The notes under the pieces are model-generated. The model ran no database searches, was not told the origin of the DNA, and was given only the letters and a program-made list of their open reading frames with translations. A DNA stretch of 64,000 bases from Micromonospora sp. WMMD1102 (lineage in GTDB: Bacteria; Actinomycetota; Actinomycetes; Mycobacteriales; Micromonosporaceae): contig NZ_JARUBN010000001.1 of the NCBI RefSeq assembly GCF_029626265.1, forward strand, positions 806,001 to 870,000. The letters run 5' to 3'. The number at the start of each line of letters is the position of its first letter. Within the stretch, counting starts at the first letter, position 1. Of the stretch, positions 22,748 through 63,793 are shown piece by piece. The translations under genes and the position numbers were made by a program.

Positions 22748-24496
22748 TCACGCGCCCCGGCCGGACCCTTCGGCCAGCGGCGGGTGCCAGCCGGCCGGGT
22801 CGGTCGGATCGTGCGGCGCCGCCCCGAACAGGACGTAGTGGCGCGGCGCCACTGCCGTGTGCCGGCCGGGCAGTGCGGCCAGGCAGGCGGCGTGCGCCTG
22901 TTCCGGGGTGGCGACGGACTCGCTCGCCGCCACGTACGCGACGAGTTGCCGGCCGTCCCGCTCCGGGAAGATCCGGGCCCGCCCGGCGCCGAAAACCTCC
23001 GTCAGCATCCGCTGCATCTCGGGCAATTCCACCCAGCTCGAATCGACGTACGACCAGTCCGGCCCGGACGGCGGGGGTGGTACCGCCAACACCTGCGCCA
23101 GCCGGGTGTGGTCCAGGTCGCCGTCGGCGGCAAGGACCAGCAGCCGCTCCACCGCGCGCAGCAGCGACTCGGCGACGTCGGCCGACAGCCGACCGGTGTC
23201 ACCGGTCCAGAGCCGCAGGTGCAGCACGTCGTCGTACTCGAACAGGTCGAACCGGAGCAGGGTGAGGGTGCGCCGCATCGACTGCCGCGACACGGTGGTG
23301 GCGGCCAGCGCGGCGCGCACCTGCTCGGCGGTCGGCGGCGGCCGGTCGTCGGCCCGGTCCACCACCGGGCTGTTGAACAACGGCTCGAAACTGAAGTGGA
23401 CACCCCGCTCCGAGCCGACCTCGCGGTCGATCTCGACCCGCCGGTCCACGTCGTAGATGCCGCGCTCGCTGGCGGCCACCACGGACAGCCACGCCCGGCG
23501 TACCAGCTCGTCGAAGTCGGCCGTGCCGACCTCGACCCGGGTCAGCACGGTCTGCACCAGCGTGCCGATGTGGCCGTGCAGGTGTCGTTCGAAGCGGTTG
23601 CTGGCGAGCGTGGGGAAGACCACGTCGGCCGACCCGGTCCGCTGGGCGAGCAGCGCGCAGACGGCGGCCAGCACGGCGCTCGGCCGGCTGCGGCCGGTGC
23701 GCGCCGCCTGTCGCCGCAGCGCCAGCGCTGCCGCCGGGGAGCGCAGTTCGACGGCCACCGACTCGGCCACCGCCGTGCCGCGCGGCGCCGGGTACAGGCA
23801 GGCCGGCATCCGGCGGAGCAGCTCCCGGCGGTAGCGCAGCGCCCGGTCCACCCGGCGGCGCAGCCTCGGCTCACTCTCCTGGATCGCCTGGTCCACCGGC
23901 TGGTGGCGCGGCGGGCCGGCCACCCGGGCGGCCGGATCGCCGAGCAGCTCGAAGAAGTCGCGCCCCAGCAGCGTCACCGCCTGTAGGTCGACGACCAGGT
24001 GCGACAGCCGTACGTGGCCGGCCAGCACCTGTCCGTCCCGCACCGCGAGCACGACCCAAATCGGCAGTTGCTCGGGGCGGCACGCCAGGCCGGGCCGCCA
24101 CAGGTGCTCCAACTCGGCGGCGACGGCGTGCCGGTCGACCGGTTCCGGCGTGCCCGGCTCGACCTGGTAGGTCGCGATCGGCAGCACGCCGCTGCCCAGT
24201 ACCCGCTGCCGTGGCTGGTCGCCGAGGGTGAAGACGGTGCGCAGCCCCTCGTACCTGGCGATCAGGGTGGCGAAGCTCTCCACCACGTCGGCGAGGCGCG
24301 TGCCGTCGGGAAAGACCATCGGGCTGCCGAGCGTCGTGTCGAACGCCTCCGGCGCATCCTCGATCCACTTGAGAATGTTGAGCTGGCCGTGCGTCAGCGC
24401 ACCTTCTCGGGCGCGCAGCCCGGCGAAGCGGACCGCCGCCTCCGGCCCGGATGCCAGCACGATTCGCTGCGGCTCGACCAGCACGCTCCCGCTCAT
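22748..24496 (-). CDS. Stand-alone condensation-domain protein
   Basis: A 582-residue protein of the NRPS condensation superfamily with no attached carrier or adenylation domain. The N-lobe opens with LTHGQLNILKWIEDAP and reaches the active-site motif as SHLVVD (165-170). This keeps the second His and the Asp of HHxxxDG but replaces the first His by Ser and the Gly by Leu. The C-lobe carries VVFPTLASNRFERHL and the latch-like region around 320-400, and a short extra C-terminal domain (from about 490) follows. Such free-standing enzymes make amide or ester bonds between carrier-bound acyl groups. It follows the LuxR gene by four bases and is divergent from the carrier/ligase/decarboxylase operon, so joining the amine part to the polyketide or releasing the chain is a reasonable but unproven role. 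Confidence 0.8.
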   Translation of the reverse strand: MSGSVLVEPQRIVLASGPEAAVRFAGLRAREGALTHGQLNILKWIEDAPEAFDTTLGSPMVFPDGTRLADVVESFATLIARYEGLRTVFTLGDQPRQRVLGSGVLPIATYQVEPGTPEPVDRHAVAAELEHLWRPGLACRPEQLPIWVVLAVRDGQVLAGHVRLSHLVVDLQAVTLLGRDFFELLGDPAARVAGPPRHQPVDQAIQESEPRLRRRVDRALRYRRELLRRMPACLYPAPRGTAVAESVAVELRSPAAALALRRQAARTGRSRPSAVLAAVCALLAQRTGSADVVFPTLASNRFERHLHGHIGTLVQTVLTRVEVGTADFDELVRRAWLSVVAASERGIYDVDRRVEIDREVGSERGVHFSFEPLFNSPVVDRADDRPPPTAEQVRAALAATTVSRQSMRRTLTLLRFDLFEYDDVLHLRLWTGDTGRLSADVAESLLRAVERLLVLAADGDLDHTRLAQVLAVPPPPSGPDWSYVDSSWVELPEMQRMLTEVFGAGRARIFPERDGRQLVAYVAASESVATPEQAHAACLAALPGRHTAVAPRHYVLFGAAPHDPTDPAGWHPPLAEGSGRGA

Positions 24497-24500
24497 CGTG

Positions 24501-25370
24501 CTACGCCGCCTTCGCCCGAGCTGCCAGCAGCGCCCCGCCCAGTGGTCGGCCGCGATCCGCCGGCACCGCCCCGTCCGGCCGCAGCCAGCTGGCGGCCTGC
24601 ACGCCGGCCTGGAAGCGACTGACCGAGTCCAGGCTGCGCAGCAACGCGGCCACGTGCCGCCGGCAGGTGCGCACCGACATGCCGAGCTTGCGGGCGATCA
24701 CCTCGTCGGTGAAACCCTGGGCCATCAGCCTCGCGAGGGCGTACCGCAGGTCGTCGGCGACCGGCACGTACCCGGGGTGTTCGTCGGTGAACGGGACGCC
24801 GCCGTCCCACGACTGGTCGAAGAGGCCGACCAGGCAGCTAACGAGGTTGCGGTCGCGGACCCGCTGCGCGGTCGGCTGCCCGTCGTCGGCGGTGCCGAGC
24901 AGCACCGCCAACTCGCGGTCGAAGATGACCGCGTTCTGCGCGAGCTGGGCGACCGTGCGCACCTGGCCGCCGCCCTCGACCAGCCGAAGCGTGCGTGCCC
25001 GGTCGGCGAAGTCGGCCCGGTACCCGTGTGGGCACAGCACCCGGACGTCGATCCGGTGACCGGAGCCGGGGTGGTCGGTGAGCATGTCGACCATCTGCAC
25101 GCCCTCCGGGGTCGAGTGCAGCATCAGGACGTCCGCGCGGCAGCCGTCCAGCGCGAGCTTGAGCAGGCCGCGCACCTCGGCGTCGCCGACCACCCAGTCG
25201 ACCGCCGGGACCCGCCCGGCGGATCCCGGTGGGACGCCGGCCGGTGCGGGCGGATCGGCCGAGGGTGGTTCGGCGGTGGCGTCGAGGCTCTGCCAGAGCC
25301 GGTCGATAAGCGCGCGGTGCACGAAGACCGCACGTTCGGCCCGAGTGGCCAGTTCCCCGTTCGACACCAT
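24501..25370 (-). CDS. LuxR-family transcriptional regulator
   Basis: A 289-residue protein with a C-terminal LuxR/GerE helix-turn-helix (about 215-265: LMAQGFTDEVIARKLGMSVR, then TCRRHVAALLRSL). The N-terminal 200 residues (with VDWVVGDAEVRGLLKLALDG and LCPHGYRADFADRAR) resemble the effector-like part seen in stand-alone LuxR regulators of actinomycete biosynthetic clusters. There is no receiver or Walker motif. GAGGAGG lies seven bases before the ATG. It is divergent from the amino-acid activation operon and heads a two-gene unit with the condensation protein, so pathway-specific control is likely. Confidence 0.85.
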   Translation of the reverse strand: MVSNGELATRAERAVFVHRALIDRLWQSLDATAEPPSADPPAPAGVPPGSAGRVPAVDWVVGDAEVRGLLKLALDGCRADVLMLHSTPEGVQMVDMLTDHPGSGHRIDVRVLCPHGYRADFADRARTLRLVEGGGQVRTVAQLAQNAVIFDRELAVLLGTADDGQPTAQRVRDRNLVSCLVGLFDQSWDGGVPFTDEHPGYVPVADDLRYALARLMAQGFTDEVIARKLGMSVRTCRRHVAALLRSLDSVSRFQAGVQAASWLRPDGAVPADRGRPLGGALLAARAKAA

Positions 25371-25423
25371 GGCGAAGCCTCCTCAGTACACCGCTCGGTG
25401 GCGGCCACAGCATCCGCGCCCCG

Positions 25424-25520: not shown

Positions 25521-25574
25521 ACCCTCTGGTTCGCTGCTGCGCGACCGGACCTCCCACGAACCTGAGGTGAGATC

Positions 25575-25859
25575 ATGACGGCTGAGACAGGGACGATCGG
25601 GCAGGTGCCCCGGAGATTTCAGGAGATCGTACGGCCGTACCTGCCGTACGCCAGCGGGGCGGAGCTGTCCGCCGACGACGACCTGGCCGCGCTCGGCCTC
25701 GACTCGATGGGCGTGGTGCAACTGCTCGCCGCGGTGGAGGAGGGCTATCAGCTCCAGTTGCCGGACGAGCTGCTCGACCAGGAGAGCTTCAGCACGGTCG
25801 GCACCCTGTGGCAGACGGTGGCCGCCGTGCTGCCGCCCGAGCAGCGCGGCGAAAAATGA
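25575..25859 (+). CDS. Discrete acyl/aminoacyl carrier protein
   Basis: A 94-residue carrier protein with the phosphopantetheine site LGLDSMG (Ser44) and a four-helix layout. AGGTGAG precedes the ATG. Its stop overlaps the next start (ATGA). Together with the following ligase and PLP decarboxylase it forms the carrier/ligase/decarboxylase set seen in two settings: VinL/VinN/VinO-type macrolactam pathways, where an amino acid is loaded and decarboxylated on the carrier, and the functionally unclear 'exosortase A-associated' gene sets. The first role fits better here. Confidence 0.9.
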   Translation: MTAETGTIGQVPRRFQEIVRPYLPYASGAELSADDDLAALGLDSMGVVQLLAAVEEGYQLQLPDELLDQESFSTVGTLWQTVAAVLPPEQRGEK

Positions 25860-27616
25860 CCGGCCTGGCCGCGCCGGACCGGCTCGACGACCTGATCGGT
25901 TGTGGCGAGCCGGAGCAGCCGGCGGTGACGTTCCGGGACGCGACGCTCAGCTACCGGCAGTTGCGCCACGAGGTCGTCCGGGCCGCTGCCGGGCTGCGCG
26001 ACCTGGGGGTCCGCCGGGGCGACCGGGTCGTGGTCCACCTGGAGAAGCGCCTGGAGACGGTGGTGGCCCTGCTGGCGGTGGCCCGGGCCGGCGCCGTCGT
26101 GGTGCCGGCGAACCCGGTCTTCCGGCCCCGCCAGCTCGGCCACGTGGTCGCGGACTGCGCGGCCACCGCGATCGTCACCACGCCGGACCGGTACGACCTC
26201 GGCCGGGACGAACTGCGCCGGACCACCTCGGTCCGCCACGTCATCCTGGTCGGCTCGGACGGCACCGAACCGACTGCCGACGCGACGACCGGTTCGACGG
26301 TCGACGGGCGGCTCGCCGGTTCGACGGTCGACGGCCCGCTCGCCGGTTCGACCGCCGACGGCCCGCTCACCGGTTCGACCGCCGACGGGCGGCTCGCCGA
26401 CTCGACCGCCGACGGAGTGACCGACGGGCGGGCGGTCGACGGGCCGGCACACGGTCTGCCGTGGCGGGTCGTCGGTTGGGAGTCGCTGGACGGCCCCGAC
26501 ACCGGTGCGGTCCGGGTGATCGACGAGGACGTCGCCGCGATCCTCTACACCTCCGGCAGCACCGGCGGCCCGAAGGGCGTCGTGCTGACCCACCGGAACC
26601 TGATCGCCGGTGCCCGGAGCGTGGCCGGCTATCTCGGCCACACCGCCGACGACGTGATTCTGGCGGCGCTGCCGCTGAGCTTCGACGCCGGTCTCAGCCA
26701 GCTCACCACCACCCTGATCGCCGGCGGCCACGTGGTGCTGGTGAACTTCCTGCTGCCCGGCGAGGTCGTCAAGGCGTGTGCCCGACACCGTGTCACCGGC
26801 CTCACCGGGGTACCGCCACTGTGGATCAAGCTGGCCGCGCCGGACTGGCCGGCCGCCGCGACCCGCCAGCTGCGGTACTTCGCCAACACCGGGGGCCGGA
26901 TGTCGAAGACGACCCTGGACCGGCTGCGGTCGCTGTTCCCCGATGCCCGGCCGTTCCTGATGTACGGGCTGACCGAGGCGTTCCGGGCCACCTATCTCGA
27001 CCCGCGGGAGGTGGACCGGCGACCCGACTCGATCGGCCGGGCCATCCCGAACGCGGAGGTGCTCGTCGTGCGGCCGGACGGCCAGGAGTGCGAGCCGTAC
27101 GAGCACGGCGAGATCGTCCAGCGCGGCGCGCTGGTGGCCCGCGGCTACTGGAACGACCCGGAGCGCACCGCGTCGCGGTTCCGCCCCCTGCCCGGCGGTG
27201 TCCGGGACGCCCGCGCCGAGTGCGGCCGCCCGGAGATCGCGGTCTGGTCCGGTGACCTGGCGTACCGGGACGAGGAGGGCTTCCTCTACTTCGTGGGACG
27301 TACCGACGAAATGATCAAGACCTGCGGCTACCGGGTCAGCCCCACCGAGATCGAGGAGGCGGCGTACGCCACCGGCCTGGTCGTCGAGGCGGTGGCGCTG
27401 GGCCGACCGGACGAGCAGATCGGCGAGCACATCGTGCTGGTGGTCGCCGGGGACACCGACGAACGGACGCTGCGCACGGCGCTTTCCGGAACACTGCCGG
27501 GATACCAGCGGCCCCGCGAGGTGGTGATCCGGGCGCAGTTGCCCCGCTCGCCGAACGGCAAGTTCGACCGGGCCGAGCTGCGGCGGCAACTGGGCACCGA
27601 CGGAGGGGCGTCGTGA
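25856..27616 (+). CDS. AMP-forming acyl/aminoacyl-ACP ligase
   Basis: A 586-residue ANL-superfamily ligase. Adenylation motifs are clear: LYTSGSTGGPKGVVLTH (A3), YGLTEAFRATYLDPRE (A5-like), SGDLAYRDEEGFLYFVGR (A7/A8) and PRSPNGKFDRAEL with the catalytic C-terminal Lys. It closely fits the acyl-CoA ligases annotated as exosortase A-associated (TIGR03098) and is analogous to VinN. It probably activates an amino acid and loads the upstream carrier. Residues 146-190 are five 9-residue repeats (GSTxDGxLx) inserted between core beta strands, absent from ordinary family members. Overlapping start and stop codons couple it to both neighbours. Confidence 0.88.
   Translation: MTGLAAPDRLDDLIGCGEPEQPAVTFRDATLSYRQLRHEVVRAAAGLRDLGVRRGDRVVVHLEKRLETVVALLAVARAGAVVVPANPVFRPRQLGHVVADCAATAIVTTPDRYDLGRDELRRTTSVRHVILVGSDGTEPTADATTGSTVDGRLAGSTVDGPLAGSTADGPLTGSTADGRLADSTADGVTDGRAVDGPAHGLPWRVVGWESLDGPDTGAVRVIDEDVAAILYTSGSTGGPKGVVLTHRNLIAGARSVAGYLGHTADDVILAALPLSFDAGLSQLTTTLIAGGHVVLVNFLLPGEVVKACARHRVTGLTGVPPLWIKLAAPDWPAAATRQLRYFANTGGRMSKTTLDRLRSLFPDARPFLMYGLTEAFRATYLDPREVDRRPDSIGRAIPNAEVLVVRPDGQECEPYEHGEIVQRGALVARGYWNDPERTASRFRPLPGGVRDARAECGRPEIAVWSGDLAYRDEEGFLYFVGRTDEMIKTCGYRVSPTEIEEAAYATGLVVEAVALGRPDEQIGEHIVLVVAGDTDERTLRTALSGTLPGYQRPREVVIRAQLPRSPNGKFDRAELRRQLGTDGGAS
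26291..26425 (+). repeat. Five 27-bp tandem repeats inside the ligase gene
   Basis: Five consecutive 27-bp units, the first four starting GGTTCGAC and the fifth diverged, encode GSTVDGRLA, GSTVDGPLA, GSTADGPLT, GSTADGRLA and DSTADGVTD. The repeat keeps the frame and lies between conserved motifs, so it is likely a flexible surface loop that grew by slippage. Confidence 0.9.
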
Positions 27617-28833
27617 CCGCCCCCGGGATCCCGGCCGGCTACCCCCGGCGAGACGGACAGCTGACCGTCGGCGGCATCCCGCTCGACCGGCTCGCCGCCC
27701 GGGTGGGCGGTACGCCGTTCTTCGCGTACGACCGCAGCCTGGTCACCGAGCGGGTGGCCCGGGTACGGGCGGCGCTGCCCGGGGTGCACCTGCGGTACGC
27801 GGTCAAGGCCAACCCGATGCCGGCGCTGCTGGCCCAACTGGGTCGGCTGGTCGACGGCTTCGACGTGGCCTCCGCGCGGGAGATGCGGCACGCGCTGGAC
27901 ACCGGGGTGCCGGCGGACCGGATCAGCTTCGCCGGGCCGGGCAAGACCACCGAAGAACTCTCCGCCGCGGTCGCCGCGGGCGTCACCGTGGAGGTCGAGT
28001 CGCCGGGTGAGCTGGAGCGGCTCCGGGTGGTGGGCGAGGGGCTCGGCATCCGGGCCAGCGTGGCGGTGCGGGTCAATCCCGACTTCGCGGTGACGGGCTC
28101 CGGGATGCGGATGGGCGGTGGCCCGCAGCAGTTCGGCACCGACGCCGAGCGGGTGCCGGAGCTGCTTGCCGCGATCGGCCGGTACGGCCTGGCGTTCGAC
28201 GGCTTCCACGTCTTCGCCGGCTCGCAGAACCTCGACGCCGAGCGGATCTGCCAGGCGCAGCGCCGGACGGTCGAGCTGGTCGTGAAGCTCGCCGGGGAGG
28301 CACCGGGGCCGGTCCGGCACCTGAACATCGGCGGCGGCTTCGGCATACCGTACTTCCCGAAGGACCGGCCGCTGGATCTCGCGCCGATCGGCGAGAACGT
28401 GGCGCGGCTGATCGACGACCTGGTGCGGCCGTTGCTCGGCGACGCCGAGATCGTCGTCGAACTGGGCCGGTATCTGGTCGGCGAGGCGGGCGTGTACGTG
28501 ACCCGGGTGGTGGACCGCAAGGTCTCGCGGGGCACCACCTATCTCGTCGTGGACGGTGGGATGCACCACCAGTTGGCCGCGTCCGGCAACTTCGGCCAGG
28601 TGATCCGGCGCAACTACCCGATCGCGGCCGGCCGGGTCGGCGCCGGCGAGCCGGAGACGGTGACGGTGGTGGGCTCGCTCTGCACCCCGCTCGACCTGCT
28701 CGGCAAGGCGGTGTCGCTGCCTCCGACCGGTCCCGGCGACCTGGTCGTGGTGTTCCAGGCGGGCGCCTACGGGCTCACCGCCAGCCCGGTCGGTTTCCTC
28801 AGCCATCCCGAGCCGGTCGAGGTGCTGGTGTGA
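27613..28833 (+). CDS. PLP-dependent amino-acid decarboxylase (DAP/ornithine type)
   Basis: A 406-residue fold-type III (alanine racemase-like barrel) decarboxylase. The PLP lysine is in RYAVKANP (Lys65). The phosphate-binding LNIGGGFGIPYF, the ELGRYLVGEAG block and the active-site Cys region GSLCTPLDLL follow, then FQAGAYG near the end. It fits TIGR03099 and the VinO/BtrK kind that decarboxylates an amino acid while it is bound to a carrier protein. The product would be a beta- or gamma-amino acyl thioester or a related amine. The GTG start overlaps the ligase stop and the stop overlaps the ABC gene start. Confidence 0.88.
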   Translation: MTAPGIPAGYPRRDGQLTVGGIPLDRLAARVGGTPFFAYDRSLVTERVARVRAALPGVHLRYAVKANPMPALLAQLGRLVDGFDVASAREMRHALDTGVPADRISFAGPGKTTEELSAAVAAGVTVEVESPGELERLRVVGEGLGIRASVAVRVNPDFAVTGSGMRMGGGPQQFGTDAERVPELLAAIGRYGLAFDGFHVFAGSQNLDAERICQAQRRTVELVVKLAGEAPGPVRHLNIGGGFGIPYFPKDRPLDLAPIGENVARLIDDLVRPLLGDAEIVVELGRYLVGEAGVYVTRVVDRKVSRGTTYLVVDGGMHHQLAASGNFGQVIRRNYPIAAGRVGAGEPETVTVVGSLCTPLDLLGKAVSLPPTGPGDLVVVFQAGAYGLTASPVGFLSHPEPVEVLV

Positions 28834-29816
28834 ACGAGCTCGCGCAGGCGGCGCCGTCACCCGCCGCGGACGGTGGCGGCACGCCGGGCCGGACCGTCCC
28901 GGCCGGACTAGCGGGCCGGACCGTCTCGGCCGGACATGCCGGCACGGCTTCCGGCGAGCCGTCGAAGGCCGGCGCCGACATCGTGCTCGAAGCCGTGGAC
29001 CTGCGGAAACGGTACGGTGCCATCCAGGCGCTGGACGGCTTCTGCCTGACCGTGGCGGCCGGTGAGGTGGTCGGCCTGGTCGGCCACAACGGCGCGGGCA
29101 AGACCACCTTCCTGGAGATGGTGGCCAGCCTGGTCCGGCCGGACAGCGGCCGGATCACCGTCGACGGCGCGGATCCGCTGCACAGCCGGGGCGTGGTGGG
29201 GATCTGTCCGCAGCACATCGCGCTCTATCCGTCGGCGACGGTCCGGGAGCACCTGCGGCTGTTCGGCGGCATCAACGGGCTGCGCCGCCGCGCGCTGCGC
29301 GGCGAGATCGACAGGCTGGCCGCCGGGCTGCGACTCACCGAGATCATCGACCGGCGGGTCGGCGTACTCTCCGGAGGGCAGCAGCGGCGGACCCAGGCGG
29401 CCGTGGCGCTGATCCACCGGCCCCGGCTGATGTTGCTGGACGAGCCGACCGCGGGCGCCGACCCGGAGACCCGCCAGGCGGTGCTCGACGTGGTCAGGGA
29501 CCGGGCCGCCGAGGGCGGCTCGGTCGTCTACACCACCCACTACCTGCCCGAGTTGACCGAACTGCGGGCCACCATCGCGGTCGCCCGGCGCGGCCGGGTG
29601 ATCGCCCGGGGTACCGGCGCGGAGCTGCTGGAGCGGCTGCCGGGCCAGGTGCGGGTGCGGTTCGCGGACGACGAGGTGCAGATGTCCACGATGGACACTA
29701 CCGGCACCCTCGTGACGCTGTTGCACTCGGCCACCGCCCCGGTCACCGAGGTCGAGATCCGCAAGCCGTCCCTGGACGATCTCTACCGGTCGCTGGCGGT
29801 GTCCGATGATCAGTGA
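28830..29816 (+). CDS. ABC transporter ATP-binding protein
   Basis: A 328-residue ATPase of the drug-exporter (DrrA/CcmA-like) type. A 50-residue Ala/Gly/Pro-rich leader precedes the domain. Walker A is GHNGAGKTT (85-93), the Q-loop lies near GICPQHIALYPSATVRE, the signature is LSGGQQRRTQ, Walker B is LMLLDEPTAGADP and the H-loop is in YTTHYLPE. The C-terminal tail ends KPSLDDLYRSL as in DrrA proteins. It pairs with the permease gene it overlaps by 11 bases, and probably exports the product or gives self-resistance. Confidence 0.92.
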   Translation: MNELAQAAPSPAADGGGTPGRTVPAGLAGRTVSAGHAGTASGEPSKAGADIVLEAVDLRKRYGAIQALDGFCLTVAAGEVVGLVGHNGAGKTTFLEMVASLVRPDSGRITVDGADPLHSRGVVGICPQHIALYPSATVREHLRLFGGINGLRRRALRGEIDRLAAGLRLTEIIDRRVGVLSGGQQRRTQAAVALIHRPRLMLLDEPTAGADPETRQAVLDVVRDRAAEGGSVVYTTHYLPELTELRATIAVARRGRVIARGTGAELLERLPGQVRVRFADDEVQMSTMDTTGTLVTLLHSATAPVTEVEIRKPSLDDLYRSLAVSDDQ

Positions 29817-30561
29817 CGCACTGCACAGCACCGCCGTGCAGATCCGGCACAACGTACTGCTGCGGCTGCGCGACCCGGCCCAGATCGTCAGCTACGTCTT
29901 CCTGCCGATGGCGCTGATGCTGGTCTTCGAGCCGCTGTACCGGCGGGCCCTCGACGGCGGCACGTTGCAGACCGTCACCGGCCCGCTGATCCTGTTCTCC
30001 GTCTTCGCGCTCGGCGTGGTCGGCAACGCGGTACTCACCGAACGCGAGTGGCGCACCTGGGACCGCCTGCGGGCCTCCCGCGCCTCCCGCACGTCGCTGC
30101 TGCTCGGCAAGGCGGTTCCGGTCTTCGCCGTACTGCTGGTCCAGCAGACGGTGCTGCTGGTCTTCGGCTGTGCGGTGGTCGGCCTGCCGGTGCCGCGCAA
30201 CCTCCTCCTCGTCGCCCTCGCCGTGCTGCTGTGGGGCTTCGCGGTGCTCGCGGCCGGTACCGCCCTGGCCACCGTGGTGCGCAGCCGTGGCGATCTGATG
30301 CTCGCCACCGACCTCGGTGCGATCCTGGTCGGCTCGCTCGGCGGCGCACTGGTGCCGGTGGACCTGATGCCCGGCTGGCTGCGGAACGTCGCGCCGGCCT
30401 CACCCGGCTACTGGGGACTGGCACTGATGCAGGACGCCGTCCAGGGCGACCTCGGCGGGATGCTGGTGCCCGCACTCGTCGTCGCCGGGATGGGCCTGGC
30501 CCTCGCCGTGTTCGCCACCTACCGACTGTCCCGTGGCTGGGGACGCAGCCACCTGCTCTGA
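29806..30561 (+). CDS. ABC-2 type transporter permease
   Basis: A 251-residue membrane protein with about six hydrophobic segments, including SYVFLPMALMLVF, LILFSVFALGVVGNAV, VLLVQQTVLLVFGCAVV, LLLVALAVLLWGFAVLA and LVPALVVAGMGLALAVF. The cytoplasmic block EREWRTWDRLRASRAS and the late PVDLMPGWLRNVAPASPGYW are typical of ABC2 exporters. It overlaps the ATPase gene and precedes the AT-less PKS in the same operon. Confidence 0.9.
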   Translation: MISDALHSTAVQIRHNVLLRLRDPAQIVSYVFLPMALMLVFEPLYRRALDGGTLQTVTGPLILFSVFALGVVGNAVLTEREWRTWDRLRASRASRTSLLLGKAVPVFAVLLVQQTVLLVFGCAVVGLPVPRNLLLVALAVLLWGFAVLAAGTALATVVRSRGDLMLATDLGAILVGSLGGALVPVDLMPGWLRNVAPASPGYWGLALMQDAVQGDLGGMLVPALVVAGMGLALAVFATYRLSRGWGRSHLL

Positions 30562-30614: not shown

Positions 30615-33600
30615 GTGACCGAGGCAACCTACGACTCCGCTGTCGCCATCGTCGGGATGTCGGGGCGCTTCCCCGGCGCAGCCGACACCGACGAACTGTG
30701 GCGCAACCTGGCTGCCGGACTACCCGGCCTGCGCACCATCAGCTCCGACGAGCTGCGCGCCGCGGGCCTGGACCCCGAAGCCGCCGCCGCCGACCCGACG
30801 TACGTCGCGGTCGGCGGCCCGCTGCGCGACATCGAGGAGTTCGACGCCGGGGTGTTCGGCTTCAACCCGCAGGAGGCGGCCACCATGGAGCCGCAACACC
30901 GGCTGTTCCTGGAGTGCGCCTGGGAGGCTCTGGAGCGGGCCGGCTACTGCCCGACGGAGACACCCGGGCAGGTGGGCGTCTTCGCCGGCTGCGGCTTTCC
31001 GGACTATCTGACCCGCAACCTCGACGGGCTCGACGACGAACCGGGCGGGCACCTGCTGCTGGCCGCCGGCAGCGAACGGGACTCGCTGACCTCACTCGTC
31101 GCCTACAAGCTCGGGCTGCGGGGGCCGAGCATCACCGTCCAGACCTTCTGCTCCACCTCGCTTGTCGCGGTCCACCAGGCGTGCCAGAGCATCCTCACCT
31201 ACGAGTGCGACATGGCGCTGGCCGGCGGTGCGGCGATCGGGCTGCCACAGCCGGCCGGCTACCGCTACGAGCAGGGCGGCATCCTCTCCCCGGACGGGGT
31301 GGTACGCAGCTTCGACGCGGCGGCGACCGGCAGTGTGATGGGCAACGGGGTCGGCGTGGTGGCGCTGAAGCGGATGACCGACGCGGTGGCCGACGGCGCC
31401 CCGATCCTCGCCGTCATCCTCGGCTCCGCGGTCAACAACGACGGCTCGGCCCGGGCCGGTTACCCGGCGCCCGGAGTGGACGGCCAGGCCGAGGTCATCG
31501 AGTCCGCGATGACGGTGGCCGGGGTCAAACCCGAGACCGTCGGGTACGTCGAGTGCCACGCCACCGGCACCGTACTCGGCGACGCCGTCGAGCTGGCGGC
31601 GATGACCCGGGCCTTTCCCGCCGGCCGCGCGGAGCCGTGCGTGCTGGGTACGCTCAAGCCGAGCATCGGCCACCTCGACCGCGCCTCCGGCGTGACCGGC
31701 CTGATCCGGGCCACCCAGGCGCTGCGGCACGGCACGCTGCCGGCCACCCCGAACTTCGGCACGCCGAACAGCGCGCTGGCCGCCGCCGGGGACCGGTTCG
31801 CCGTGCTCGACCGGCAGCGGCCGTGGCCGGCGGGGCCGCACCCGCGCCGGGCCGGGGTGAGTTCGTTCGGTCTGGGCGGCACCAACGCGCACGTGGTGCT
31901 CCAGGAGGCACCTCCGGTCCCGGCCCGCACCCCGCGCCCCGGCCCGCACCTGCTCACCTTCTCGGCCGCCGACCCGGCCGCGCTCAACGCGCTGACCGAG
32001 CGGTTGCACGGGCATCTGCGTACCGCCGACGAGGCGGAACTGGCCGACGTCGCGTACACCCTCCAGGTGTCACGCGGCCAGTTCGCGCTGCGCCGCGCGG
32101 TCGTCTGCCGCGACCTCGCCGACGCCGTGTCGGCGCTGGACGAGCCGGAACGCTGGCTGGACGGCGAGCCCTCCCGGCGCGACCCGACGGTCCGGCTGGT
32201 GAACGCCACGGGGCAGGTCACCGCCTGGTTCGAACGGCTCTCGGTACGCCTCGGCGACGGCCCGGTCGAGGTTGTGGTGCCGGCCGAGCCGAGCGAGGAG
32301 TGGCTGCTCGGCACGCTGGCCCGGCTCTGGCTCGACGGCTGCGCCGTGGACTGGCCCGCCCTGCACGAGGGCCGGGGGCGGCGCGTGCCGCTGCCGACGT
32401 ACCCGTTCCAGCGCCGCCGGCACTGGGTCGAGCCGAAACAGCGGGCGGAACCGCCTGGGTACACCGGCTGGACCTACCTGCCGAGCTGGCGGCAGCGGCC
32501 GCTGCCCGAGCTGGACCTGGACGCCCGGCTCCGCGCCGCCGGGCCGTGGCTGGTGCTCTCCGCCGACCCGCGCGGCGAGGCCCTGGTCGACCGGCTCACC
32601 CGGGCCGGCGCCGAGGTCAGCACGGCCCGCCCCGGAGACGCGTTCGGGCTGACCGACGACGGCGACTTCGTCGTCGGCGACGACCTGGCCGAGCTGTTCG
32701 ACTCGCTGCTGGTAGCGCCGCGCACGATCGTGCACGGCTGGAGCCTCGGCAGTCCCGACGGTCCCGGCAGTTCCGGCGGTCCCGCCAGCCTCGGGGGACC
32801 CGGCGGGCACGCCCGGGACCGGCGCGGATACGGCGCGGCGCTGCAGATCGCCGGCGCCCTCGCCGGCGACGGGTACGCCGGCCCGACCGAACTCGTGCTG
32901 CTCACCTCCGGAGCGGTCGGGGTCACCGGTGGCGACCTGCGCGACCCCGGCCAGGCCGCGGTCGGTGCGCTCGCACCGACCCTGATGTCGGAGAACGACG
33001 CGCTGCGCTGCCGGCACGTCGACGTCGACGACCGGACCGACGCCGAGGTGCTGCTCGGCGTGCTGGCACAGCCGCACGAGGGACCGGTCGCGATCCGCTG
33101 CGGCGAACCGTGGCTGCGCCACTTCGAGCCGTTGCCGCTGGAGGAGCGCCGGCCGCCGCTCGGGTCGACCAGCACGGTGCTGATCACAGGTGGCCTCGGC
33201 GACGTCGGGATGGCCCTGGCCCGACACCTGGCCGACCGGTACGGCTGCCGGCTGGTGCTGACCGGGCGCACCGAACTGCCGCCGCGCGAGACGTGGCAGG
33301 CGTACCTCGACGGCGGCGCGGACGGCCGGGCGGCCCGACACGTGCGCAACGTTCTCGACCTGGAGGCGCGGGGCGCCCGGGTGCTCGCCTGCTCGGCCGA
33401 CGTGGCCGACGTGCGGCAGATGCGCGCGGTGGTGGACACCGCCGTCGAGCGGTTCGGCGGAATCGACGTGGTGGTGCACGGGGCGGGCGCCCAGGATCCC
33501 CGCTACTTCACCATGGCGCACCAGGCCGACGAGGCGACCAGCGAGGCGCACTTCCGGACCAAGGTGACCGGCTTCCTGGCCCTGCAGGAGGCGCTCGCGG

Positions 33601-34223
33601 GCCGGTGTGACGGCCCCCGACTGACCCTGTCGTCGATCGCCGCGGTGCTCGGCGGGCCGGCCCTCGGCCCGTACGCCGCCGCCAACGCCGTGCTCGACGC
33701 CGCGGCGCGGGCGGCCCGACGGGACGGCCACGGTCGCTGGACCACTGTGGACTGGGACACCTGGGCGGTGGACCCGCGACGGGCCGGCGGCGTGTTCCAG
33801 ATGACGGTCGAGGAGGGTGCCGGCGTCTTCGAACGCGTCCTCGCGGCGGCGGGCCGGCTCGGTCACGTGGTGGTCTCCACCGGTCCGCTGGCGGAGCGGG
33901 TACGGCGCTGGGTGGTCGGGGACGAGGGTCCGGACCGGGCCGACGCGGTCCGTCCCAGCCACCCCCGGCCGAACCTGGACACCGCGTACGTCGAACCGGC
34001 CGGCGAGCTGGAGGCGGCCATCGCCGGCGTCTGGGCGGAGGTGCTCGGCCTGGCCGAGGTGGGCGCGGTCGACAACTTCTTCGAGCTGGGCGGCCACTCG
34101 CTGGTCGCCATCCAGGTGGCGGCCCGGATCCGGGACACGGTGCGGGCGGCGGTGCCGGTGACGGCGATCGTGGAGAACCCGACGGTACGCCAGCTCGCCG
34201 CGACGATCCGGTCCGAGAGCTGA
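30615..34223 (+). CDS. AT-less polyketide synthase module: KS-KR-ACP
   Basis: A 1202-residue single-module PKS. The KS (about 10-440) belongs to the hybrid PKS/NRPS-like clade with FCSTSLVAVH (Cys179), ECHATGT (catalytic His, usual Gly replaced by Ala) and SIGHLD. No acyltransferase follows. The chain goes from the KS into a post-AT-type linker (WLDGCAVDWPAL, VPLPTYPFQRRRHW), so the AT appears to have been lost. The KR has the cofactor motif LITGGLGDVG (about 856) and Tyr1020 in PYAAANAVLD; there is no LDD motif. The ACP site is GGHSL (Ser1162). Extender units must come in trans. GTG 30615 has GGAGGGAT upstream. It is the last gene of the carrier/ligase/decarboxylase/exporter operon and may extend the amino-acyl thioester. 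Confidence 0.9.
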   Translation: MTEATYDSAVAIVGMSGRFPGAADTDELWRNLAAGLPGLRTISSDELRAAGLDPEAAAADPTYVAVGGPLRDIEEFDAGVFGFNPQEAATMEPQHRLFLECAWEALERAGYCPTETPGQVGVFAGCGFPDYLTRNLDGLDDEPGGHLLLAAGSERDSLTSLVAYKLGLRGPSITVQTFCSTSLVAVHQACQSILTYECDMALAGGAAIGLPQPAGYRYEQGGILSPDGVVRSFDAAATGSVMGNGVGVVALKRMTDAVADGAPILAVILGSAVNNDGSARAGYPAPGVDGQAEVIESAMTVAGVKPETVGYVECHATGTVLGDAVELAAMTRAFPAGRAEPCVLGTLKPSIGHLDRASGVTGLIRATQALRHGTLPATPNFGTPNSALAAAGDRFAVLDRQRPWPAGPHPRRAGVSSFGLGGTNAHVVLQEAPPVPARTPRPGPHLLTFSAADPAALNALTERLHGHLRTADEAELADVAYTLQVSRGQFALRRAVVCRDLADAVSALDEPERWLDGEPSRRDPTVRLVNATGQVTAWFERLSVRLGDGPVEVVVPAEPSEEWLLGTLARLWLDGCAVDWPALHEGRGRRVPLPTYPFQRRRHWVEPKQRAEPPGYTGWTYLPSWRQRPLPELDLDARLRAAGPWLVLSADPRGEALVDRLTRAGAEVSTARPGDAFGLTDDGDFVVGDDLAELFDSLLVAPRTIVHGWSLGSPDGPGSSGGPASLGGPGGHARDRRGYGAALQIAGALAGDGYAGPTELVLLTSGAVGVTGGDLRDPGQAAVGALAPTLMSENDALRCRHVDVDDRTDAEVLLGVLAQPHEGPVAIRCGEPWLRHFEPLPLEERRPPLGSTSTVLITGGLGDVGMALARHLADRYGCRLVLTGRTELPPRETWQAYLDGGADGRAARHVRNVLDLEARGARVLACSADVADVRQMRAVVDTAVERFGGIDVVVHGAGAQDPRYFTMAHQADEATSEAHFRTKVTGFLALQEALAGRCDGPRLTLSSIAAVLGGPALGPYAAANAVLDAAARAARRDGHGRWTTVDWDTWAVDPRRAGGVFQMTVEEGAGVFERVLAAAGRLGHVVVSTGPLAERVRRWVVGDEGPDRADAVRPSHPRPNLDTAYVEPAGELEAAIAGVWAEVLGLAEVGAVDNFFELGGHSLVAIQVAARIRDTVRAAVPVTAIVENPTVRQLAATIRSES

Positions 34224-34435
34224 CGCGGACGCCGGAGACCGACCCCGGCGGGACCGACGGAAGTCGTCCCCGTCCCGCCCGGCGGATGCCGGCCCCGTGA
34301 GGCGGGGTGGTTCGCCGTTCCGCCCGCACGGCGGCTTGCCGGCCCGTCCCGCACGGTTGCCTGCCGGGACCTGCGCCACGCGGTTGCCTGCCGGGGCCTG
34401 CGCCGCACGCCGGCCGGCCGGACGGACGGGGCCGG

Positions 34436-34478
34436 GCCGGGCCGGGCTCGGGCTGACGAAGCCCGAGCCCGGCCCGGC
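34436..34478. terminator. Bidirectional terminator hairpin between convergent operons
   Basis: A perfect 19-bp stem (34436-34454 with 34460-34478) with a five-base loop (GACGA) lies between the end of the AT-less PKS gene and the end of the thioesterase gene. Position and strength suit a shared terminator. The rest of the 274-base gap holds GC-rich direct repeats of CTTGCC/GGTTGCCTGCCGG type but no gene. Confidence 0.75.
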
Positions 34479-34497
34479 AGGGGGCGGGGGAGAAGGT

Positions 34498-37829: not shown

Positions 37830-37842
37830 CTGCATCTCCTAG

Positions 37843-38694: not shown

Positions 38695-43421
<4,727 letters not shown>

Positions 43422-43424
43422 GGC

Positions 43425-58841
<15,417 letters not shown>

Positions 58842-59528: not shown

Positions 59529-62500
59529 TCAGCGGGTACGCGCCCGCAGCTCCTCGGCGACCGGTCTGACGATCTTCGGATCGAGTTTGTCGGCCAGTGC
59601 GAGGGACTCCCGCCACGCCATCGAGGCCGCCTCGCTCTGCCCACGGCTGCGGTACGCGTCGCCGACGGCCAGCAGCGCCCTGACCCGCCAAGTGTCCATC
59701 TCCAGTTCGGCGAAGATCTGCTGGGCCTGGGAGAAGAGTTCCAGGGCCAGGTCGGCCATCCCGCGTTCCAGGTGGATGCCGCCGCGCACCATCCGGATCT
59801 GCCCGCCGAGCATCCGGTGCGGCAGGTAGGACGCCTGGTCCTGCACCTTGACCAGCTCCGCCTCGGCCTCGTCCGTGCGCTGCTGCCGGGCCAGCGCGAC
59901 GCCGAGGCCGTAGCGGGCGTACATCTCGCCGACCTTGTCGCCGTACTCCTGGACCAACTTGATCACGTTTCGGAAGGTCTCCTCCGCGGCGGTCTCGTCC
60001 TGCTGGGCCAGTTGCAGGTCACCGAGCCGGCACAGCAGTTGGCAGCGGATCCGGCGGCTGCCGGTGGCGTGCACCAGTTCGAGCGCGCGGGTCAGCTGCT
60101 GCTCGGCCGCGTCGGCGTCGCCCCGCTCAAGCTGGATCTGCGCCATGCTGCCGAGTACGTGTGCCTCGCCGACCGCGTCGCCGGCCGCCCGCAGCAGCGG
60201 CAGCGCCTGCTCGCAGCGGCGGGTCGCGTCGGCCATCCGGCCCTGGGCGCGGTCCAGGAAGGCCAGGTTGCGCAGCACGAGTGCCTGGCCGTGCCGGTCG
60301 CCGACCTCGGTGAAGATGTGCTGGGCCGGCCGCAGTAGCCAGCCGGCCTCGGTGAACCGCTGCTCGAACAGCCGCAGCGCACCCAGCGAGTGCAGCATGG
60401 CGGCTTCCCCGCGCCGGTTGGCGGCGCGGCGGCACTCGGCCAGCGCCATCTCGTGCGTGACACGCCAGTCGTCGAAGAAGCTGTGCGCCTCGAACAGGGT
60501 GACCGAGGTGAGCGCGAGGTCCCAGCAGAGCTCGTCCAAGCCGGCGCGGGCGGCCTGGCAGACCGCGGCGACGATGCCGTGCCGTTCGCTCTCGTACCAC
60601 TGGATCGGGTCGACCAGCTCGCGTTCGATAACGATATCTGGCAGCGGCCAACGCTCTGCGCTGCCGTGCAGCAGCGTGTGGTCACCGCCGTACTCCCGGC
60701 GGTGCGCCTGTTCGGCGAAGTAGAGCCAGGCGCCGAGCGCGCGGTCGAGGGCCGCGGCACGCTCGGCGGGCGAATCGTCGTGGGCGAGGCGCTCGCGGGC
60801 GTAGGTGCGGATCAGGTCGTGCAACCGGAAACGCAGCCGCCCGCTGCGGCCGAGCCGCTCGACGTCGACGAACTGGGCGTCGATCAGTTCCTCGAGCGCC
60901 TCTTCACCCTCGTGCACCGAGGTGTCGAGCAGCGGGGCGGCCAGCCAGCCGGGGAAGTCGTGGACCTCCAGCATGGCGAGCCGGCGGAACAGCCGCTGCG
61001 CGGTCTCGCTGAGCACCTTGTACGTCAGCGCCAGCGTGGCCCGCACGCCGAGTCCCCGGTAGACCAGCTCGTGCAGCCGCTGGGTCTCGTCGGCGATGCG
61101 TTCGACGAACCGGCCGATGGACCAGTGCGGGCGGGACGCCAGCCGGGCACCGGCGATGCGCAGCCCGATCGGCAGCCCGCCGCAGATCTCCACCAGCCGC
61201 AGGCACTCGCTCAGCTCGGCGTACGCCCGGTCGCTGCCGATCACCTTGACCAGCAGCCGCATCGCCTCCTCCTGGTCGAAGATGTGCACGTTGACGGTGG
61301 TCACCCCGGGCTGCCCGGTGAGCCGGAACCGGCTCGTCACCATCACCGCACAGCCGGCGGAGCCGGGGACCAGCCAGCGCACCTGCTCCTCGTCGACGGC
61401 GTCGTCGAGGACGACCAGGATCCGCCGGTGTGCCAGAAGTTGCCGGTAGAGTTCGGCGCGCTCTTCGAGTCGTTCCGGTATCGCGCTGCCCGTCACCCCG
61501 AGCGCCCGCAGGAACCGTTCCAGCGCCTGCGCCACGGTGACCGGCTGCACGGAGAGGCTGTTGAGCTGGACGAACAACTGGCCGTCCGGAAATTCGTCGG
61601 CGAGCAGGTGCCCGACGTGGGTGGCGAGGGTGGTCTTGCCAACGCCGGCCTTGCCGCAGACCACCACCACCGGCACGCTGTAGGGCGAGTCGCCCCTGGA
61701 GAGCAGGTGCTGGCGGAGCTGGCGGACCGGCTCGGTGTGCCCGGTGAAGTCCTGGATGTCGGTGGGCAGCTGGCGCGGGGTCACCTCCGGCATCGGGACG
61801 GTGCTGGGCAACGCGACCGGCCGCGGCGCCGGGTCGGGTGAGCCGCTGAGGATCGCCCGCTCCAGCGCCTGCAACTCCTCGCCGGGCTCGATGCCCAGCT
61901 CGTCGACCAGCAGCCGACGCCCGCTGCGATAGACCTCCAGTGCCTCCGCCTGCTGTCCGGACTGGTACAGCACCCGCATCAGCCGAACCCGCAGCCCTTC
62001 CCGGAGGGGATGGTGACTGACCAGCTCGGTGAGGTAGCCGACCAGGCCGTGGTGCGTGCCGAGCCGGAGCCGGACGTCGGTCCACTGTTCGACAGCGCCG
62101 ACCAGTTCCTGGACCAGTCGGACGTCGACACCCTTGAGGATCCGGCTGTTGCCCGTGGTCAGCCCGTGTCCCCGCCAGAGTCCGGTGGCCGTCCGGAACA
62201 GCTCGTCGGCCTCGGCGAGGCGGTGCTCGGCGACGGCCTGGTGGGCCCGCCGGGTCAGGTCGGCGAAGGCCAGGCTGTCGAGCTGGTCGGCGGGCACCCG
62301 CGCCATGTATCCGTTGGACGTGGTGGAGATGACGTCCGGTGGCAGGCCGGCCTCGGTCAGCATCCGACGCAGCATCGATATGCAGATCTGCACCTGCGCC
62401 TTCGCGGTGGCCGGTGGTGCGTCGTCCCAGACGGCCTCCATGAGCCGGTCCATTCCGACGCTCCGGTTCGCCTCGATCAGGGTCATCATGAGGATGATTT

Positions 62501-62576
62501 GCTGACGTTGCGCGACGATCGGAAACTGACCGGACGGGCCGTGCACCTCCAACGATCCTAGTACTCGAAACCACAC
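59529..62576 (-). CDS. SARP/AfsR-type regulator with NB-ARC and TPR domains
   Basis: A 1015-residue AfsR-like protein. It has an OmpR-like winged-helix domain (about 1-95), a bacterial transcriptional activation domain (about 100-245: LVQELVGAVEQWTDVRLRLG, LYQSGQQAEALEVYRSGRR), and an NB-ARC ATPase with Walker A GKAGVGKTT (308-316), Walker B ILVVLDD and GLPIGLRI. TPR repeats run from about 600 to the end. GTG 62576 has GAGGAGG nine bases upstream and gives the standard N-terminus; a longer frame to 62729 begins with unrelated sequence. SARPs bind direct repeats and activate biosynthetic operons, and this is the likely cluster activator, transcribed toward the PKS genes. Confidence 0.92.
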   Translation of the reverse strand: MWFRVLGSLEVHGPSGQFPIVAQRQQIILMMTLIEANRSVGMDRLMEAVWDDAPPATAKAQVQICISMLRRMLTEAGLPPDVISTTSNGYMARVPADQLDSLAFADLTRRAHQAVAEHRLAEADELFRTATGLWRGHGLTTGNSRILKGVDVRLVQELVGAVEQWTDVRLRLGTHHGLVGYLTELVSHHPLREGLRVRLMRVLYQSGQQAEALEVYRSGRRLLVDELGIEPGEELQALERAILSGSPDPAPRPVALPSTVPMPEVTPRQLPTDIQDFTGHTEPVRQLRQHLLSRGDSPYSVPVVVVCGKAGVGKTTLATHVGHLLADEFPDGQLFVQLNSLSVQPVTVAQALERFLRALGVTGSAIPERLEERAELYRQLLAHRRILVVLDDAVDEEQVRWLVPGSAGCAVMVTSRFRLTGQPGVTTVNVHIFDQEEAMRLLVKVIGSDRAYAELSECLRLVEICGGLPIGLRIAGARLASRPHWSIGRFVERIADETQRLHELVYRGLGVRATLALTYKVLSETAQRLFRRLAMLEVHDFPGWLAAPLLDTSVHEGEEALEELIDAQFVDVERLGRSGRLRFRLHDLIRTYARERLAHDDSPAERAAALDRALGAWLYFAEQAHRREYGGDHTLLHGSAERWPLPDIVIERELVDPIQWYESERHGIVAAVCQAARAGLDELCWDLALTSVTLFEAHSFFDDWRVTHEMALAECRRAANRRGEAAMLHSLGALRLFEQRFTEAGWLLRPAQHIFTEVGDRHGQALVLRNLAFLDRAQGRMADATRRCEQALPLLRAAGDAVGEAHVLGSMAQIQLERGDADAAEQQLTRALELVHATGSRRIRCQLLCRLGDLQLAQQDETAAEETFRNVIKLVQEYGDKVGEMYARYGLGVALARQQRTDEAEAELVKVQDQASYLPHRMLGGQIRMVRGGIHLERGMADLALELFSQAQQIFAELEMDTWRVRALLAVGDAYRSRGQSEAASMAWRESLALADKLDPKIVRPVAEELRARTR

Positions 62577-63010
62577 CTCGCACGCCCTCCTCGCCCCCGT
62601 GTGCACCGTCCATAGGTGCCAATGTGAATCGGCGTGTGCTTGTCGAAAGCGTACGTCCTGTTCGCCGCTCGTGGTAGCTCGTCGATGCGTACCCGCCCGT
62701 CGCCCGACTGCCGTTGGCCGGGTCGTCACGGCGACGGCGTCGTTCCGGGACGCTTACCGCTCTTCTCGCCCGTCTCGGGCGGGGCGGCACGGGGCGGCCA
62801 GAGCCAATCGAACTTATCGGATAACTAGGTCAATCATCATTATTAATCGACAAGAGGCTATTAGCCAGACGCTGTCACTCCGAGCTGTGGCGCGACTGCG
62901 GAACGCCACGGGGGTGGTCCGAACCGCCGATATGGTCCGAACCACCAGAATGGTCCGAACCATCGGGATGGCCCGAACCACCAATACGCCGGCCTGACTA
63001 CGATGACCCG
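62577..63010. other. Intergenic region between the regulator and PPTase genes
   Basis: This is the longest stretch without a gene (434 bases), between divergent genes. It contains an AT-rich island (about 62815-62860, with ATCATTATTAATCGAC) that stands out in this GC-rich DNA, and a set of four tandem 18-bp repeats next to the PPTase start. Frames running through it have arginine-rich, repeat-derived products and are not credible. It probably holds promoters for both genes. Confidence 0.7.
62916..62987 (+). repeat. Four tandem 18-bp repeats upstream of the PPTase gene
   Basis: Units start at 62916, 62934, 62952 and 62970, with consensus GGTCCGAACCNNCNNNAT; the last reads GGCCCGAACC. The GGTCCGAACC core is close to palindromic. 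The array ends 23 bases before the PPTase GTG. It looks like an iterated protein-binding site. Confidence 0.85.
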
Positions 63011-63793
63011 GTGGATCTCCAGGTGTGGGTTCTGGCGGCGCGGGCCGTGGCGACGGACGAGGCCGCGGCACTGTTGACCGCCGACGAGACCGCCCGCGCC
63101 GGACAGTTCGCCGTCCCGGGTGCCAGGGACCTGTTCGTGGCGTCCCGGGCGGTGCAGCGGACGCTGGGCAGTGCGCTGCTCGGCGTCGCTCCCCAGCAGG
63201 TGCCGATCGGCCGCACCTGCCTGCACTGTGGCCACCGCGACCACGGCAAGCCCAGGTTCCTGGCGCGGCAGGCGCCCGAGTACTCCGTCTCGCACAGCGG
63301 CGCGCTCGTCCTGGTGGGATACGCCCGGACCGGCCGGATCGGGCTCGACATCGAGGCCGACGACCGACGCACCGACCTGGCCGGGCTGATCCCCCGGATC
63401 GCCTCCCCGGCCGAACGGCGACGGCTCGGCCGCGTCCCGCCACCGGACCTCCGGCGCGCCTGCCTGCGGCTGTGGACCCGCAAGGAGGCGGTGGTCAAAC
63501 TGACCGGACACGGCTTGGCACTGCCGTTCACCCGGTTCTCCGTGGACGAGGCGGTGGCCAGCGCCGACGAGCCGGTGCCGGACTGGCCGGACGAGCCGGT
63601 GTGGCTGCGCGACCTGCCGGTGGAGCCGGGCTACACCGCCGCCCTGGCGACCAGCCCGGCGCCGGCCGAGGTGACCGTGGCCCGCCTGACGTCCCTGGCG
63701 GAGCTGCGGGTACGGCGGGCGACGGCCGGCCACCCCCGCCCGGAGCAGTCACCGCTCCGACCGGCCGGTCTCGACCGTGCGGGCGATCCGTAG
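63011..63793 (+). CDS. 4'-phosphopantetheinyl transferase, Sfp type
   Basis: A 260-residue PPTase that would activate the carrier domains of the cluster. Motifs: YSVSHSGALV (about 91), GLDIEADD with Asp113 and Glu115 (magnesium site), and LWTRKEAVVKLTG with Lys158, Glu159 and Lys163. A CLHCGHRDHGKP stretch precedes the core, as in many actinomycete members. The GTG start is set by the family N-terminus. Its 3' end overlaps the convergent dehydrogenase gene by 45 bases. Confidence 0.92.
   Translation: MDLQVWVLAARAVATDEAAALLTADETARAGQFAVPGARDLFVASRAVQRTLGSALLGVAPQQVPIGRTCLHCGHRDHGKPRFLARQAPEYSVSHSGALVLVGYARTGRIGLDIEADDRRTDLAGLIPRIASPAERRRLGRVPPPDLRRACLRLWTRKEAVVKLTGHGLALPFTRFSVDEAVASADEPVPDWPDEPVWLRDLPVEPGYTAALATSPAPAEVTVARLTSLAELRVRRATAGHPRPEQSPLRPAGLDRAGDP

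Follow-up and report, generated by a model that had tools for sequence, protein, structure and literature searches.

A short butyrolactol-type polyketide cluster with amine-forming genes in Micromonospora sp. WMMD1102 and its predicted product

What is made by a gene cluster that joins a saturated polyketide line to a hydroxymalonyl cassette and to genes for decarboxylating a carrier-bound amino acid? Micromonospora sp. WMMD1102 carries such a cluster at positions 22748-63793 of the window analyzed here, a 64,000-nucleotide stretch (G000:C1:806001-870000) of its 8.9-Mb genome. A preliminary description of this DNA listed a loading module with a KSQ-type ketosynthase (KS), two reducing modules, a protein with KS, acyltransferase (AT), ketoreductase (KR), and acyl carrier protein (ACP) domains, and FkbHIJK-like genes, and each of these is seen as an intact gene or domain set. 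It also listed a carrier, a ligase, and a pyridoxal phosphate (PLP) decarboxylase, an AT-less KS-KR-ACP protein, a condensation (C) protein, an exporter, and two regulators, all of which were confirmed by profile matches. Every part named there is present as an intact gene, and a thioesterase gene (34498-35283, PF00975) was missing from that list. The cluster is real and represents a short, aminoacylated version of the butyrolactol kind, and its product is predicted. We lean, by a modest degree, toward reading it as a shortened butyrolactol-type line that makes a small contiguous-polyol lactone joined to a carrier-made ω-amino acid.

Polyol modules and the conserved core

Eight genes make up the core of the oxygenated half. 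On the plus strand lie those for the ABC exporter ATPase (28830-29816, PF00005), the ABC exporter permease (29806-30561, PF01061), and the AT-less KS-KR-ACP protein (30615-34223; KS, KR, and PP-binding matches). On the minus strand are those for a type II thioesterase (34498-35283; PF00975, 150.4 bits), an FkbH-like glyceryl-ACP enzyme (35280-36446; TIGR01686, 285.9 bits against a cut-off of 146.65), an FkbI-like acyl dehydrogenase (36443-37576; PF00441/02770/02771), the FkbJ-like hydroxymalonyl carrier ACP2 (37587-37835, PF00550), and an FkbK-like 3-hydroxyacyl dehydrogenase (37843-38694, PF02737/PF00725). Two further open reading frames (ORFs), 30698-33610 and 34297-35397, were rejected as genes because neither frame has a Pfam match; the frame 30558/30615-34223 is correct.

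The eight core genes occur together in all 13 of the other AT-less loci compared: G240, G332, G075, nine named actinobacterial loci (L114-L122), and the Streptantibioticus cattleyicolor megaplasmid (L194), where they are 41-74% identical to those of the window. Streptomyces cattleya is the older name of S. cattleyicolor. The nine named loci were kept from a genome scan yielding 80 loci, as those actinobacterial ones that matched as an AT-less module, and the other 71 were dropped. Thioesterase orthologues (41-60%) hold the same place in the relatives, and FkbK orthologues are 74-82% identical. In G240, 14 of the cluster genes are found in the same order at 78-95% identity, so the cluster is not a chance assembly; the G240 contig starts just before PKS2, the first polyol polyketide synthase (PKS), and PKS1, the SARP-type regulator, and the phosphopantetheinyl transferase fall outside that comparison. 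A related polyol cluster in G332, of the same genus (L045/L046/L058), has an ACP1-like domain fused before a KS-AT(GYSVG)-KR-ACP module, followed by an AT-less module.

The preliminary description recognized no named pathway here, but the genes of the oxygenated half form the core that butyrolactol-type clusters conserve. According to PMC5355916, the butyrolactol A cluster encodes a 1169-amino-acid PKS (orf18), FkbK, an ACP, an acyl-CoA dehydrogenase, FkbH, a thioesterase, and an ABC pair, and five of its proteins have Streptomyces cattleya homologues that are 71-82% identical. Both the butyrolactol A cluster (Streptomyces sp. TP-A0882) and S. cattleyicolor pSCATT share with the window the FkbK-ACP-FkbI-FkbH-thioesterase order, the ABC pair, and an AT-less terminal KS-KR-ACP. 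As set out in PMC5932044, orf10-16 of butyrolactol ends in KS/KR/ACP, two KS/AT/KR/ACP modules make up orf10-17, and orf10-18 comprises KS/DH/KR/ACP (DH, dehydratase) with no AT. Feeding results in PMC5355916 show C-1 to C-8 paired from glucose, not acetate. Together with colinearity, this pairing indicates that four butyrolactol modules take hydroxymalonyl, two of them without an AT, and the coupling of C-1/C-2 after glucose but not acetate indicates that the AT-less terminal module is one of these.

The AT-less protein of the window has no PF00698 match, and its sequence retains the Cys and the two His of the KS. It aligns with the S. cattleyicolor terminal module at 48% over 1229 columns. 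In a tree of 44 KS domains, with which an earlier 32-KS tree agrees, the polyol KS domains sort into positional groups. The AT-less KS of the window groups with terminal modules (14 KS, support 0.999). The KS of PKS2 (38691-43421, minus strand; KS-AT-KR-ACP) falls into a clade of five (support 0.995) with that of G240 and those at the first polyol position in Saccharothrix, S. cattleyicolor, and S. parmotrematis. No KS of the window falls in the two middle polyol groups of the tree. The window line therefore appears to be one from which two middle modules are absent. The module that precedes the first polyol module is a methylmalonyl-type module with DH, enoylreductase (ER), and KR domains in the window and in S. 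cattleyicolor alike. Since the AT-less protein is orthologous to the terminal butyrolactol-type module, two hydroxymalonyl units are predicted, and not the single oxygenated unit of the preliminary description; the branched saturated acyl chain and the amine part that it proposed do follow from the genes.

Where would an AT-less module obtain its unit? The AT of PKS2 (GYSLG/HPFH) is the only GYSxG-type AT among the four of the cluster. For comparison, PMC4207774 lists GYSFG for ZmaA, whose AT takes hydroxymalonyl-ACP, and GYSLG for ZmaF, an AT for aminomalonyl-ACP. Across the surveyed loci, 16 of 20 AT matches have GYS[LV]G, among them the two ATs of the S. cattleyicolor protein that corresponds in position to butyrolactol orf17; three have GHS and one has no motif. 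Thirteen of the 14 KS domains in the terminal group lack a downstream AT motif, and the fourteenth (G075) is cut at the edge of the fetched sequence, its protein (P0146) having no PF00698 match. Two other polyol modules, the first in S. cattleyicolor and the second in S. parmotrematis, also lack the motif, though a short partial AT match persists in each. We infer that the AT of PKS2 serves both polyol modules; a single shared AT fits the repeated absence of ATs from terminal-group modules.

The AT-less protein is not special to this cluster, an idea that was rejected when 7775 of 7994 scored proteins matched it at E<=1e-100, matches that surely include generic PKS proteins. Among the 119 relatives listed, identity is 55-89% in the best local alignment, with query coverage of at least 97% for most and 43-47% for the rest. 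At E<=1e-40, a piece of it was found in 3 of 200 Micromonosporaceae genomes; G240, which bears the gene, is not among these three, having been either undrawn or missed. The terminal AT-less proteins of Amycolatopsis (L119) and Streptomyces YIM 98790 (L120) gave no KR match with the KR queries used.

The saturated chain is assigned to PKS1 (43425-58841, minus strand; 5138 amino acids), which consists of KSQ-AT-ACP followed by two KS-AT-DH-ER-KR-ACP modules. Its loading KSQ has the motif VDTGQSSS, and the DH, ER, and KR catalytic motifs are intact in modules 1 and 2. By the motif table in PMC4207774, the ATs are read as putatively methylmalonyl-specific in the loading module (GHSQG/YPSH), malonyl-specific in module 1 (GHSVG/HAFH), and methylmalonyl-specific in module 2 (GHSQG/YASH). 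The ER-KR parts of both extension modules contain an exact 1868-bp repeat (43985-45852 and 50129-51996), in stretches where the GC skew (0.39-0.44) and the AT skew (-0.32 to -0.34) are strong. It resembles the elements termed GRINS.

The window is thus close to the butyrolactol type in having FkbH/I/J/K genes beside a PKS, a GYSxG AT, and an orthologue of the AT-less terminal module, and departs from it in having two polyol modules, whereas butyrolactol A has four. In S. cattleyicolor pSCATT, too, a DH-ER-KR module of the methylmalonyl type comes ahead of the first polyol module. Butyrolactol A has a tert-butyl starter and a polyene, in contrast to the KSQ propionyl-type start and two saturated extensions predicted for the window, and the amine trio and condensation protein are extra relative to its cluster. 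With KSQ loading and two DH-ER-KR modules, the window is not a butyrolactol A cluster.

The amine trio and the condensation protein

Upstream of the exporter genes, on the plus strand, lie ACP1, an aminoacyl carrier protein (25575-25859; PF00550, 94.7% in G240), an AMP-dependent, VinN-like ligase (25856-27616; TIGR03098, 657.5 bits against a cut-off of 592.35), and a BtrK-like PLP decarboxylase (27613-28833; TIGR03099, 579.7 bits against 478.45). Both enzymes exceed the NCBIfam cut-offs of these exosortase A-associated families; no exosortase match was found among the window genes scanned, the remaining genome not having been searched. The closest solved structure to the decarboxylase is BtrK, which scores 254 bits; the top-scoring diaminopimelate decarboxylase reaches 169. 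For the ligase core, the best solved relative is VinN (3WVN, 139.8 bits), while the whole ligase ranks the two-domain LgrA first. VinN recognizes amino and carboxyl groups through Asp230, Ser299, and Arg331, according to PMC7756342. By alignment count, the ligase has Asp, Thr, and Arg at these positions, using a numbering offset that we set by anchoring on the Asp, and these residues are identical in six of six sequences, that of the window included.

The trio, too, is of a known route type: the VinN/VinL/VinO, BolO/BolC/BolN, and BtrI/BtrJ/BtrK systems share with it a ligase, a free carrier, and a BtrK-like PLP decarboxylase. By VinN/VinO and BolO/BolN logic, it is predicted to make carrier-bound β-alanine, or γ-aminobutyrate (GABA) if the substrate is Glu. 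The window differs from these systems in coupling the trio to a polyol line. Bolagladin has a KASIII and a desaturating acyl-CoA dehydrogenase, neither of which is in the window gene run; a KASIII gene lies beyond the window end. A second cluster in the same genome, L067 (G000:C1:4103000-4122999), holds genes for a C protein, KASIII, a pre-ATP-grasp ligase, a BtrK-like decarboxylase, an ACP, and an acyl-CoA dehydrogenase, and similar sets recur in other Micromonosporaceae. We know of no product for a cluster of the L067 type.

Besides the window, five relatives, each from a different genus, carry a complete trio: G240 and four of the nine named ones, namely Saccharothrix, S. parmotrematis, Amycolatopsis, and Streptomyces YIM 98790. 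In Amycolatopsis, the carrier and ligase are in L119 and the decarboxylase lies about 35-40 kb away on the same 620,863-bp contig; in Streptomyces YIM 98790, the decarboxylase is on a separate 4,454-bp contig beside a KSQ piece. The L116 decarboxylase was found by plain tblastn and was missed by domain annotation with a GC-based ORF filter. Among the other five named relatives, the best decarboxylase match genome-wide is at most 41% in four, and L118 was outside the genome-wide search. Saccharothrix NRRL B-16314, Amycolatopsis A133, Streptomyces YIM 98790, and Streptantibioticus parmotrematis share the core, ACP1, the ligase (58-69%), and the decarboxylase (68-74%), and the KSQ Gln is seen in the first three, as in the window. 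Saccharothrix, Amycolatopsis, and S. parmotrematis differ from the window in that each has two or more additional polyol modules, and neither a match to ER nor its motif was found in the sequence fetched for them. To our knowledge, none of these four clusters has a known product.

The stand-alone C protein (22748-24496, minus strand) has 582 amino acids, a C-terminal extension, and a PF00668 score of 45.3 bits (Pfam cut-off, 30.6). Its His166 and Asp170 are invariant in 19 alignment rows, and the first His of HHxxxDG is Ser. The structure model (pLDDT 90.7) has a C-domain fold by Foldseek/VIA, and the C-terminal ~100 residues give the impression of the small subdomain of adenylation domains. 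SgcC5 of the C-1027 pathway likewise has a stand-alone C fold, and its use of a carrier-bound amino acid donor is our proposed analogy. The sequence match is weak (E 6e-5), and the window protein differs in its SHxxxD motif and its extra ~100-residue C-terminal part. In Foldseek, many C domains rank above SgcC5, so the fold does not single it out. In Saccharothrix and S. parmotrematis, too, the trio has a neighboring C protein with an aligned HxxxD. A pattern scan had confined HxxxD to one of three trio-adjacent relative C proteins, a result rejected because alignment to the window protein (P0002) shows the motif in all three. Of 55 other C loci, 17 have a BtrK-like decarboxylase in the same fetched sequence as the C homologue, and a contig scan with the C protein alone found no relative. 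We infer that this protein attaches the carrier-bound amino acid as an ester or amide.

Predicted product and competing explanations

Read from its motifs, PKS1 would begin with KSQ decarboxylating methylmalonyl to a propionyl starter; the malonyl added by module 1 and the methylmalonyl added by module 2 would each undergo full reduction, giving 2-methylheptanoyl. Hydroxymalonyl would be assembled on ACP2 by FkbH, FkbK, and FkbI. Motifs and orthology suggest that the ACP-fed AT of PKS2 loads this unit, that PKS2 adds it, and that the AT-less terminal module adds a second, trans-loaded by the same AT. The line would then yield 2,3,4,5-tetrahydroxy-6-methylundecanoyl-ACP, probably released, by analogy with butyrolactol, as a 2,3-dihydroxy γ-lactone (C12H22O5), with or without help from the thioesterase. 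The ligase would place the side-chain carboxyl of Asp or Glu on ACP1, and decarboxylation would give β-alanyl- or GABA-ACP1. In the least certain step, the C protein would transfer the aminoacyl unit to a hydroxyl as an ester, or acylate its amine as an amide. The predicted product, the lactone C12H22O5 with or without one β-alanine or GABA, would be exported by the ABC pair. Calculated [M+H]+ values are 247.154 for the lactone, 318.191 and 332.207 for its β-alanyl and GABA esters, and 336.202 and 350.217 for the N-acyl forms of β-alanine and GABA.

Several points weigh against this scheme. The ACP1-like domain fused ahead of the KS in G332 suggests a starter role. The C proteins that accompany the trio in S. 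parmotrematis and Saccharothrix share only 27-30% with that of the window. A genome-wide search at E<=1e-15 gave no condensation homologue in Amycolatopsis or Streptomyces YIM 98790, both of which have the trio, and a C protein is therefore not required by the trio everywhere. No decarboxylase is seen in the stretch examined at 38 of the 55 C loci, and several of the 17 loci that have one come from related species and are not independent. S. cattleyicolor counts as butyrolactol-type by the homology in Table 2 of PMC5355916 and by architecture, rather than by comparison with the TP-A0882 sequence. The product, the lactone release, and the choice of Asp or Glu are predictions.

Could aminoacyl-ACP1 instead be a second starter, with the AT-less KS-KR protein extending β-alanyl or GABA and the C protein forming an amide between the resulting amino-hydroxyacyl unit and the acyl chain of PKS2? 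The G332 fusion ahead of KS-AT(GYSVG)-KR-ACP and the AT-less module speaks for this, and ACP1, the ligase, and the decarboxylase share one plus-strand gene run with the AT-less gene. The AT-less KS, however, sits in the terminal-position clade with the S. cattleyicolor terminal module, the 42-kb S. cattleyicolor cluster has no match to ACP1, ligase, or decarboxylase, and no decarboxylase match was found in 40 kb of the G332 contig. We regard a second starter as unlikely, although it is the best placed of the alternatives.

A malonyl unit at the AT-less module, drawn from fatty acid synthesis in place of hydroxymalonyl, would leave C-2 as a methylene in a trihydroxy acid. The protein has no AT of its own, and AT-less modules elsewhere can rely on the malonyl transacylase of fatty acid synthesis. 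The butyrolactol precedent points the other way, as the unit of the terminal module there was labeled by glucose, not acetate (PMC5355916), and we consider malonyl somewhat less probable still than a second starter. That the trio and the C protein are a separate or decayed pathway merely adjoining the polyketide genes, as might be argued from the five of nine named relatives in which no trio is seen (four without a decarboxylase match above 41%, and L118 as noted) and from the presence of the C family in clusters of another kind, is improbable given the same core beside a trio in five relatives of five genera, the conserved order of the C, HTH, and trio genes in G240 at 78-95%, and the spacing of the plus-strand genes from ACP1 to the AT-less gene, which overlap or sit within ~60 bases of each other.

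The cluster may be the shortest member seen of an unreported family of aminoacylated polyol lactones, KSQ-primed where the start is seen and present in six or more actinomycete genera. In this family a single ACP-fed AT would load hydroxymalonyl onto two modules, one of them in trans, and a stand-alone C enzyme would move β-alanine or GABA from a dedicated carrier to the polyol; we offer this wider proposal tentatively, and it is more doubtful than the scheme itself. The view that the combination as a whole belongs to no named pathway stands to the extent that it had no match to a known-product cluster in the sources searchable, MIBiG being outside their scope. No report of such a compound or cluster was found in the literature searched, which comprised open-license papers and did not cover MIBiG, and this absence is weak evidence of novelty. 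In 2017, no natural products structurally related to butyrolactol A were known beyond its own congeners, as stated in PMC5355916. This antifungal compound was recently reported, according to PMC13365550, to inhibit a fungal flippase and to enhance caspofungin. With only two polyol modules and a product of predicted mass, the cluster would be a compact and manageable system in which to study how hydroxymalonyl reaches AT-less polyol modules and how polyol lines gain or lose modules, and the amine trio flags a set of related clusters worth mining.

Regulators and neighboring genes

Next to the C gene is that of a helix-turn-helix (HTH) regulator (24501-25370, minus strand), with 27.8 bits to HTH_23 and other profiles below cut-off; orthologues of 44-50% stand beside ACP1 and the ligase in four relatives. 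A SARP-type regulator with NB-ARC and TPR domains (59529-62729, minus strand; PF03704, PF00931) has relatives of 37-43% near the core or the trio in L116, L118, L197, L201, and L202. The 4'-phosphopantetheinyl transferase gene (63011-63793, plus strand; PF01648) likely belongs to the cluster. Just beyond it, about 1.6 kb past the window end, are a second stand-alone C protein and a KASIII gene (L195, 3096-6057), which may belong to this cluster or to a neighbor.

At the other end, a methyltransferase gene (21895-22497) adjoins the C gene and has no match in 80 kb of G240. Further out, parts of an ISL3-family transposase match two overlapping ORFs (16638-18109, plus strand), probably a frameshifted copy, and a complete Wadjet type II set of JetA2, JetB2, JetC2, and JetD2 (PADLOC models) occupies 6684-15077 on the minus strand.

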